From Roseomonas sp. (GTDB lineage Bacteria > Pseudomonadota > Alphaproteobacteria > Acetobacterales > Acetobacteraceae), in contig JADCGG010000089.1 in assembly GCA_020249125.1 (NCBI GenBank), positions 1-35,948 of the forward strand: a stretch of DNA of 35,948 nucleotides, written 5' to 3'. The position numbers and the translations under genes were made by a program. This document shows positions 1 through 3,103 of the stretch, one piece after another (position 1 is the stretch's first letter; each line of letters opens with the position of its first letter). The notes under the pieces are model-generated. The model saw only the letters and a program-made list of their open reading frames with translations, ran no database searches and had not been told where the DNA came from.

Positions 1-19
1 CCCACGACCGCCCGCCGGA

Positions 20-565
20 TCAGGCGCTGCGGCTGAGCTTCACGCCGGGGAAGTCCACCGGAACGTCGAAGGCGACGTTCACGTAATTCGTGAACAGGTT
101 GAGAGCGACATGGGCCAGAATCTCGACAATGGCGCCATCATCGAACCCAGCCGCGCGCAGCGATTGCACATTTGCCGCAGTTACCGCGCCACGGTTCTCA
201 ACCACATTGATCGCGAAGGCCAGCGCTGCTCTTGTCTTGGGATCGCTGGAAAGGCCGGTCTGCGCCGCCGCCATTTCGGCGGCGCTGGCGCCGGCCTTCT
301 GGCCAAGCACGGTATGGGCCGCGAGGCAGTAATTGCAGTCATTGCGATCAGCTACCGCAACGGCGATCTGCTCGCCGAGTTTCGCGCCAATCGTCCCGGC
401 GCCAAGCGCGCCAAAGAAGCCCCACATGCTTTGCAGCGCGGCGGGCGAATTCGCAACCGCCTTGAACATGTTCGGTACCACGCCAAAGGCGCCCTGGATC
501 TGTTCCAGCGCTGCCTTGGAGCCGGCTGGGGCCGAGGCTTTGTCAACAAGGTTCACACGTGCCAT
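20..565 (-). CDS. Carboxymuconolactone decarboxylase / AhpD-like peroxidase-related protein
   Basis: A 181-aa cytoplasmic protein of the AhpD/CMD fold. The active-site pattern is visible as E65, followed by CNYCLAAH at residues 77-84. This supplies the Cys-X2-Cys-X3-His set that AhpD-type proteins use for thiol peroxidase chemistry, with the upstream Glu as proton relay. The ATG at 565 is preceded by a good AAGGAGA ribosome site. It is the last gene of a minus-strand group behind a MarR regulator and a secreted protein, which suggests induction by an oxidant or electrophile. A hairpin lies in the 90-bp gap before it, so its level may differ from the upstream genes. The family assignment is solid. 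The physiological substrate (peroxide, or an organic compound as in true CMD) cannot be told from sequence. Confidence 0.88.
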   Translation of the reverse strand: MARVNLVDKASAPAGSKAALEQIQGAFGVVPNMFKAVANSPAALQSMWGFFGALGAGTIGAKLGEQIAVAVADRNDCNYCLAAHTVLGQKAGASAAEMAAAQTGLSSDPKTRAALAFAINVVENRGAVTAANVQSLRAAGFDDGAIVEILAHVALNLFTNYVNVAFDVPVDFPGVKLSRSA

Positions 566-655: not shown

Positions 656-1384
656 TTAGCGCGCCGGGACGACGCGGCCGGGCAGGCTCAGATTGCCTGA
701 CGCGACCTTGAAGACGTTCTCGACGCATAGCAGCGGCGCATGCAGATTGGCATTGACCTTAAGGCCCGCCGTCACGCCATCGAAGCGCGCCGTTGCCAAG
801 GCACCGATCTGGGCGAGTGGCACTTGCACTTCGACGACATCGTTCGTGAATTCGGTCTTGAAGTCTGGGCTGTCGATCAGGATTGGGGCGCCTGGCCAAT
901 CCGGCGGGAGCCTCGGCGTGGTTCCTGCCGGAATGTCCTTGACCTTCAAGCCGCCGGGGCAGGCTTTGTCCTCATTCAGAATGACCCAATGCGCATGCCA
1001 GCGGTCGCGATTGATAGCGCTTTGAGCCCGCTTGGATGCATCGTCGAAATCGGGATGGAAAGTTGCGGCAAGTGCGACGATGCCTTGATCCCCCTCGAAG
1101 CCGACATCGGCCGAGTTGAGCGAGGTTGGCCAAACATAAGCGTATACTTGTGATCCTTCGAACTTGCCTGTGGCCGCCGGCCGAGCGCTGCCGGCCTCAC
1201 CGCGCACACGGGTGCGGAAGCTCGCCATGCCATTCGCCGTGGTGATCCTGGTTTCGATGATGTCGAAGGACGCGTTCACCGCTTGATTCGCGTCTGGTCT
1301 GATTTCGTTCGCGCATGCAGTGGCGCCGAGGCAAAGCGAAGCCATCGCCGCAAGGCCCAGGCCTCGCACGCTCAAAATACTCAT
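656..1384 (-). CDS. Secreted protein of unknown function
   Basis: The ORF track extends to 1489, but the ATG at 1384 is the likely start. It has AAAGGA just upstream and begins a typical signal peptide (short N-region, hydrophobic LGLAAMASLCLGA, cleavage after ACA-N or similar). The Cys near the cleavage site does not form a convincing lipobox. The mature part is about 220 aa with an N-terminal segment rich in beta-type residues, a WHAHWV motif in the middle, and two Cys (before PGGLK, and in LLCVENVF) that could form a disulfide. I do not recognise a family. The gene lies 16 bp behind marR and upstream of the AhpD-like gene, so it is probably co-transcribed and exported to the periplasm. Its function is unknown. 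Confidence 0.75.
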   Translation of the reverse strand: MSILSVRGLGLAAMASLCLGATACANEIRPDANQAVNASFDIIETRITTANGMASFRTRVRGEAGSARPAATGKFEGSQVYAYVWPTSLNSADVGFEGDQGIVALAATFHPDFDDASKRAQSAINRDRWHAHWVILNEDKACPGGLKVKDIPAGTTPRLPPDWPGAPILIDSPDFKTEFTNDVVEVQVPLAQIGALATARFDGVTAGLKVNANLHAPLLCVENVFKVASGNLSLPGRVVPAR

Positions 1385-1400: not shown

Positions 1401-2075
1401 CTAGGTCTCTTGGGTTGCTTGGAAGGGCGGCCGTCCCGTTTCGAAGCCCATCCAGTTGGCAGACTGGAGGGACGGGTCAGCCGCTTCATGCTCGCCGCAG
1501 TCGAGCCGGAGATCCCGGTCGCCGATGGCGGCGTTCACGAAGGCACAATGATGGGGCTGGGCCGCGCCCGGATGGGCGTTCGGCCGAAAATGGCGGCAGC
1601 TTACACACATGCGCTGCTCGGGAATGGCGCCTGCCAGTTGAAGGGAGCGGATGATCCGTATTTGTGACAGCAGAAGGTCAGCCTGTTGGGCGGGCGAGAG
1701 GCCGGCGAGCGCTGTCGTTACCTGTGATTTAGACTGCGCAAGCGCGCGCCCAAGTTTTCGGCCCTCATCCGTCAAAATCACGCGCATGGCGCGTGCGTCG
1801 GCAGGGTCCGGCGCGCGCGCGACAAGGCCCTTGCGTTCCAGCGCGGCGAGCGTATCGGCGATTGTTGGCGGCGATACGGCCAGATGGGCGGCGATGTCCT
1901 TGGCGCGTAGGCCGCCCGCCCGTTCCGCCAGCAAGGCCAAAGCCTGCGCCTGTGTCGGGTTCAGACCCGCCTTGCCTGAGGCCATCCAGAGGTCAGACCG
2001 CAGGACAAGCGCGATTCTCTCAAACCCCTCGCGCAGGCGCGCCGTGACGGAAGCAGGTGTTTCGGCTTTGCTCAT
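1401..2075 (-). CDS. MarR-family regulator with C-terminal Cys/His cluster
   Basis: A 224-aa winged-helix regulator. Residues about 38-110 carry the MarR fold: recognition region LRAKDIAAHLAVSPPTIADT, then the wing with DPADARAMRVILTDEGR. Beyond the usual ~150-aa length, residues 157-193 add CVSC, two spaced His, HHC at 175-177 and a final C193. Four Cys plus His could bind a metal or sense oxidants. The start at 2075 sits 6 nt after a TATTTT -10 box, so the message may be leaderless. A palindrome, TAGGAGTCCTA, overlaps the promoter and is the expected autoregulatory operator. It heads the operon with the secreted protein and AhpD-like gene. MarR identity is certain. The sensing role of the tail is inference. 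Confidence 0.93.
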   Translation of the reverse strand: MSKAETPASVTARLREGFERIALVLRSDLWMASGKAGLNPTQAQALALLAERAGGLRAKDIAAHLAVSPPTIADTLAALERKGLVARAPDPADARAMRVILTDEGRKLGRALAQSKSQVTTALAGLSPAQQADLLLSQIRIIRSLQLAGAIPEQRMCVSCRHFRPNAHPGAAQPHHCAFVNAAIGDRDLRLDCGEHEAADPSLQSANWMGFETGRPPFQATQET

Positions 2076-2081
2076 GACATA

Positions 2082-2110
2082 AAAATAGGAGTCCTAAGTA
2101 AGATTGTCAA
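2082..2110 (-). promoter_or_regulatory. marR promoter and palindromic operator
   Basis: On the minus strand TTGACA (2110-2105) is followed after exactly 17 nt by TATTTT (2087-2082), a near-consensus sigma-70 promoter. The perfect 11-bp palindrome TAGGAGTCCTA (2086-2096) covers the spacer and the edge of the -10 box, where a MarR dimer would block polymerase. The marR ATG begins about 7 nt after the -10 box, leaving no room for a ribosome site. Confidence 0.75.
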
Positions 2111-3026: not shown

Positions 3027-3103
3027 TGGGGCGACCAACGGGACTCGAACCCGTGACATCCAAGACCACAACCTGGCGCTCTACCAACTGAGCTATGGCC
3101 GCC
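3027..3103 (-). tRNA. tRNA-His (GTG)
   Basis: Read on the minus strand it folds as a complete cloverleaf: acceptor GCGGCCA/TGGTCGC (one G-U pair), D-arm with AGTTGGTAGA, anticodon loop TTGTGGT with anticodon GTG (plus-strand 3067-3069), and T-loop GGTTCGAGTCC. A G at position -1 and C73 are both present and CCA is encoded. The G-1:C73 pair is the classical identity element for HisRS. Several alphaproteobacterial groups have lost it, so its presence helps place the organism outside them. Confidence 0.96.

Follow-up and report, generated by a model that had tools for sequence, protein, structure and literature searches.

The MarR family is one of the most common kinds of bacterial regulator. 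Its usual signals are ligands, or oxidants that act on single thiols in the core, and many MarR proteins sense small molecules in the ordinary MarR pocket. CouR, MexR and MepR are MarR repressors with a winged-helix core and a palindromic promoter site. In OhrR, SydR and other cysteine-based redox MarR sensors a thiol-reactive oxidant is perceived, and the sensing cysteine is located in helix 1 (C16 in SydR; PMC11633110). A different arrangement is found in ArnR of Corynebacterium glutamicum, a winged helix-turn-helix (wHTH) repressor that carries a [4Fe-4S] centre in its C-terminal part and loses its hold on DNA when NO is present (PMC12343034). ArnR has three conserved cysteines (179, 193, and 223) and targets narK and hmp (PMC12343034).

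The regulator gene described here, marR-C4, was found in a window of 35,948 nucleotides (the whole stretch of DNA that was analysed). Its product shares the winged-helix core with CouR, MexR and MepR (Foldseek E down to 5e-7), and its promoter region likewise contains a palindrome, here a candidate site. Unlike these repressors, it has an extra Cys4 tail behind a cysteine-free core, and the Foldseek alignments to the three structures span about 150 columns, as many as the core takes up on its own. With OhrR and SydR it would share the thiol-reactive oxidant that we propose as its signal, whereas the position of the cysteines differs: those of marR-C4 are C157, C160, C177, and C193 only, all behind the helix formed by residues 128-147. 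Since none of them is near the N-terminus of the core, an OhrR-type thiol sensor was rejected. A zinc-dependent MarR protein of the AdcR/ZitR type was rejected as well (NCBIfam NF038251, 22.4 bits versus a cut-off of 175). By analogy, ArnR is the nearest functional counterpart found, as both proteins combine an N-terminal wHTH with a C-terminal cysteine centre, marR-C4 being a predicted repressor. However, marR-C4 has four cysteines with another spacing, and the two are likened by architecture and not by sequence.

The MarR core and its Cys4 tail

The preliminary description had assigned the gene to a MarR regulator with an extra cysteine cluster, and the open reading frame, the Pfam matches and the cysteine conservation all agree with this assignment (Table 1). 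Residues 37-96 matched both Pfam MarR_2 (PF12802; 1.1e-14, 54.7 bits versus a cut-off of 27) and Pfam MarR (PF01047; 1.6e-12, 47.5 bits, cut-off 24.6). Among the matches listed, the PDB relatives obtained by sequence and by Foldseek were MarR-type regulators. For three further MarR-type proteins encoded in this genome, the match to marR-C4 was confined to the wHTH and reached residue 145 of 224 at most. The AlphaFold2 model of the full-length protein had a mean pLDDT of 92.2 and placed the last MarR helix at residues 128-147. The tail that had been postulated beyond the MarR fold is thus present, although with about 77 residues (148-224) it is slightly longer than the 60-70 residues claimed.

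Table 1. Features of the marR-C4 locus in the window.
Feature	Position	Strand	Remarks
marR-C4, predicted MarR-type autorepressor with Cys4 tail	1401-2075	-	Intact open reading frame, 224 aa
Conserved core of the tail, residues 152-213, C-x2-C-x16-C-x15-C	1437-1622	-	A4 profile match at 1437-1643, 5.1e-37
Candidate operator, perfect palindrome TAGGA-G-TCCTA (TAGGANTCCTA)	2086-2096	.	10 bp upstream of the marR-C4 start codon
Predicted sigma-70 promoter, TTGACA-N17-TATTTT	2082-2110	-	10/12 matches
Second gene, predicted secreted protein of an unnamed conserved family	656-1384	-	Invariant HPDFDD, WHxHW, and two Cys (alignment A5)
Third gene, AhpD-like peroxidase-related enzyme (CMD family), CNYC	20-565	-	PF02627, 5.5e-11; TIGR01926, 1.6e-25
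Left end of the contig, within an intergenic hairpin	1-19	-	Operon appears to go on in contig C129 of the same genome

Cysteine conservation among orthologues had been named as a check on the proposed cluster, which would have been refuted by its absence, and the cluster withstood this check. In an alignment of 106 sequences, including that of the window, each of the four cysteines was invariant (106/106), a figure that for C177 and C193 is partly built in because most homologues came from a contig scan with patterns containing one of these two residues. C157 and C160 occur in no scan pattern, yet both were conserved in 73/73 sequences of the pattern-found set. Several histidines were conserved to a lower degree in the same alignment (H175 in 97%, H176 in 93%, H196 in 86%, H168 in 74%, and H162 in 56%). 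The alignment excludes a distant tail-bearing MarR protein (L017:1501-1689, minus strand) with a degenerate tail, in which the last cysteine is replaced (RISAERE); its open frame continues without a stop into an NhaA-like antiporter (605 codons). In a second alignment (A2, 87 sequences) the invariant columns were Q42, L79, R95, and the four cysteines, with no others. Judged from these sequences, most of the wHTH drifts while the Cys4 set stays invariant.

Comparison of the tail with the Pfam and NCBIfam profiles gave no significant match, and a Pfam DHHC match at 0.25 was put down to chance. When the tail profile was run against PDB sequences, again no match was significant; the best one, ZDHHC9 (E 2.4), was judged to be due to chance. 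In the full-protein model the tail blocks between residues 151 and 210 reached a pLDDT of 92-94, and the prediction is therefore that the tail folds together with the rest of the protein and does not dangle loosely. Modelled alone, the tail gave a poor structure (pLDDT 66), with which Foldseek found no match below E 0.87, and therefore no fold class is claimed.

A candidate palindromic operator within the predicted promoter

A palindrome of the kind expected for a MarR-family operator is present and conserved in the promoter region of marR-C4 and its homologues, and is regarded as a candidate site. The motif TAGGA-N-TCCTA was found exactly in 72 of 80 named homologous loci and with at most one mismatch in 78 of the 80, where it usually begins 20-27 bp before the aligned start; altogether there were 75 sites in the 907 kb of these loci. 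The own genome (3.53 Mb) contains a single copy, the one in front of marR-C4. In a genus sample of 35 genomes, the own one included, the palindrome occurred once, in front of the gene, in 8/8 genomes with the regulator and in 0/27 where its gene was not found; these congeners are mutually non-independent, whereas the cross-phylum cases are independent. Such conservation at the operon was seen in alphaproteobacteria, planctomycetes, a cyanobacterium (Nostoc) and Thermus. Two planctomycete whole genomes had one and two sites, restricted to the operon, and two rhizobial whole genomes had one palindrome each, at the operon only. Plasmid records contained two sites (Nostoc) or one site (Thermus and Sphingopyxis), all at the operon, and the record of a Deinococcus plasmid carrying the regulator gene contained none.

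Two further sites, not in the regulator promoter, stood ahead of a gene for thioredoxin or in the interval from tpx to trx (L092 and L110). In Thermus (L113:3360-3857) the single site precedes a cytochrome P460 gene, which itself stands before marR, with a nitrite reductase gene and a radical SAM gene nearby. Scanned for across the phylum, the bare motif had a match in 26 genomes, in most of them away from the regulator, and reversed-pattern controls indicated that such sites are expected by chance. The bare motif was therefore ruled out as a predictor of the regulator: because chance sites occur in other genomes, the palindrome is informative by its position and not by its mere presence. The palindrome is missing at the genes of three distant MarR proteins whose tail is related (L018, L019, and L166). 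The tail is thus not tied to the TAGGA-N-TCCTA operator, which suggests a module that several MarR subfamilies employ.

In the predicted promoter of marR-C4, TTGACA (2110-2105) and TATTTT (2087-2082) are separated by a 17-bp spacer, and the palindrome overlaps both the spacer and the -10 element. In 53 of 81 homologous promoters a TTGACA-like box (at least 5/6 matches) was located just upstream of the palindrome, compared with 5% of random windows, and a TATATA-like element follows the palindrome in homologous promoters. This predicted layout is that of a repressor blocking RNA polymerase. As the start codon lies about 6 nt after the predicted -10 element, the transcript may be leaderless. The candidate operator is the strongest functional evidence; the preliminary description had mentioned neither it nor the conserved secreted partner, nor that the operon goes on in another contig. 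Its position, its exclusivity and its conservation across phyla leave little room for other readings, and marR-C4 is very probably a dedicated autorepressor of its own operon.

The operon and its linked genes

The gene following marR-C4 encodes a predicted secreted protein, for which profile and PDB searches gave no Pfam, NCBIfam or PDB relative, and which is about 48% identical between the alphaproteobacterium of the window and Deinococcus. The third gene had been proposed as an AhpD-like thiol peroxidase candidate, and TIGR01926 supported this with 90 bits (cut-off 81.8). The window stops after this gene because the contig ends there. A redoxin gene is present on contig C129 (16262-16798, minus strand; L149), 47 bp from its right end, and is 88% identical to the redoxin that follows ahpD in a congener (L028). 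The ends of the window contig and of C129 match both flanks of a 63-bp intergenic gap in this congener, where the hairpin at the break reads GGGCGGTCGTGGC...GCCATGACCGCCC (-38.9 kcal/mol, z -4.9). Thus, the two contigs appear to be adjacent, with the operon running across the gap into the redoxin gene. A second GC-rich hairpin was noticed between the secreted-protein gene and ahpD (604-637). Since it lacks a trailing T run when read in the direction of the operon, it may serve in processing or attenuation. The operon is preceded by an SDR gene, and a tRNA-His gene (gtg; 3027-3102, minus strand) is located upstream of the latter.

Among the 106 homologous loci, the secreted protein was the most frequent companion of the regulator (65 loci, usually as the next gene), followed by redoxin (61), AhpD-like enzymes (42), MOSC (40), glutamine amidotransferase (34), catalase (22), thioredoxin (12), and pseudoazurin (11), these being raw counts that include close relatives, without weighting for phylogeny and with names taken from Pfam. 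In 86 of the 106 loci the fetched flank contained one or more genes for a redoxin, an AhpD-like enzyme, a catalase or a thioredoxin, so that the tie of the operon to thiol and peroxide chemistry, first noticed in the window, extends well beyond it. Haem- or NO-linked genes (globin, Hmp, cbb3, pseudoazurin, Rrf2) were found in 25 of the 106 loci; NnrS and nitrite reductase genes near the regulator were single cases. On plasmids, the neighbours were tpx and thioredoxin (Nostoc), TlpA and NnrS (Defluviimonas), catalase, a hexameric tyrosine-coordinated haem protein and protoglobin (Hymenobacter), and cytochrome P460 and nitrite reductase (Thermus). In six Ensifer loci (L052, L053, L054, L056, L060, and L078) the regulator and a pseudoazurin gene point away from each other and have the operator region in common, and for this reason the pseudoazurin gene may be co-regulated.

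Proposed sensing through the tail and alternative readings

The computed evidence supports the conservation of the Cys4 tail, an operator that is placed within the promoter and confined to the operon, and the gene content of the operon itself. In the mechanism that we propose, a dimeric MarR-type repressor would occupy the single TAGGA-N-TCCTA operator between its own -35 and -10 elements and block RNA polymerase. Its control would be limited to its own operon, comprising marR-C4 and the genes of the secreted protein, the AhpD-like enzyme and the redoxin, to which the regulated operons of relatives would add MOSC, glutamine-amidotransferase and other genes. The Cys4 domain would most likely be a metal-thiolate centre, possibly with an Fe-S cluster, although zinc is favoured for the single reason that no Fe-S family was matched. 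Peroxide, reactive chlorine or NO would oxidize or nitrosylate this centre, the dimer would be disturbed and the operator released, and thiol-dependent detoxification would be switched on for as long as the signal lasts. Of this mechanism, dimerisation, repression and metal binding are inferred, as are the sensing of oxidants and the allosteric path.

Four strictly conserved cysteines in a predicted repressor acting on thiol and peroxide genes make a metal-thiolate or Fe-S redox switch the simplest reading, and it is likely that the Cys4 centre, be it of zinc, Fe-S or bare thiols, would sense an oxidant, which may be NO. Because the linked genes differ between operons (catalase, MOSC, amidotransferase, globin, P460), no one enzyme reveals the signal. 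Taken as a whole, including sensing through the tail, which the preliminary description had proposed in place of the usual ligand pocket, we consider this explanation somewhat more probable than its contrary.

The Cys4 centre could also be purely structural, the signal being a small ligand in the MarR pocket. According to this alternative, the tail would be a zinc site that stabilises the dimer, and a small molecule, for example a quinone, a phenol or another electrophile on which the enzymes of the operon act, would be sensed in the pocket. Many MarR proteins act in this way, the core fold of marR-C4 matches the ligand-binding MarR structures CouR, MexR and MepR, and the genes for MOSC and amidotransferase proteins do not count among the classical peroxide genes. 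On the other hand, the cysteines of the tail are stricter than nearly all positions of the core and most of the linked genes encode thiol or peroxide enzymes, both of which are nevertheless compatible with a structural role as well. We regard this alternative as unlikely.

Somewhat less likely still is a tail that carries an Fe-S cluster and works as an NO or redox sensor in the manner of ArnR. HiPIP proteins have the cysteine spacing C-x2-C-x16-C-x13-C, to which the invariant C-x2-C-x16-C-x15-C of the tail is close (one homologue has x13 and x15), and genes for globin, Hmp, NnrS, cbb3, nitrite reductase and cytochrome P460 are found near some members. Moreover, ArnR proves that such an architecture is possible (PMC12343034). 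The NO-linked genes, however, occur in just the 25 loci mentioned above, and the comparison with the HiPIP profile was not significant. Homology of the tail to HiPIP (PF01355), which the cysteine spacing had prompted, was rejected: the two share the CxxC-x(n)-C-x(n)-C pattern and the small domain size, but the alignment was confined to the CxxC region (hhalign probability 1.6%), and PF01355 had no match to the tail nor elsewhere in the own genome.

A literature search, with most subscription papers outside its reach, found no paper on the marR-C4 regulator or on the TAGGA-N-TCCTA motif. We tentatively put forward, as a possibility that falls a little short of probable, that a Cys4 metal-thiolate or Fe-S sensor module on a MarR protein represents an undescribed domain, and that it serves a cross-phylum oxidant/NO circuit with a near-invariant single operator (TAGGANTCCTA) and a secreted partner. 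Since the operator, the promoter and the sensor residues are all named, the proposal is easily testable. If true, marR-C4 and its homologues would constitute a widespread MarR class with an unassigned Cys4 domain, a near-invariant single operator and a compact redox operon, and thus a new mode of sensing in the MarR family.
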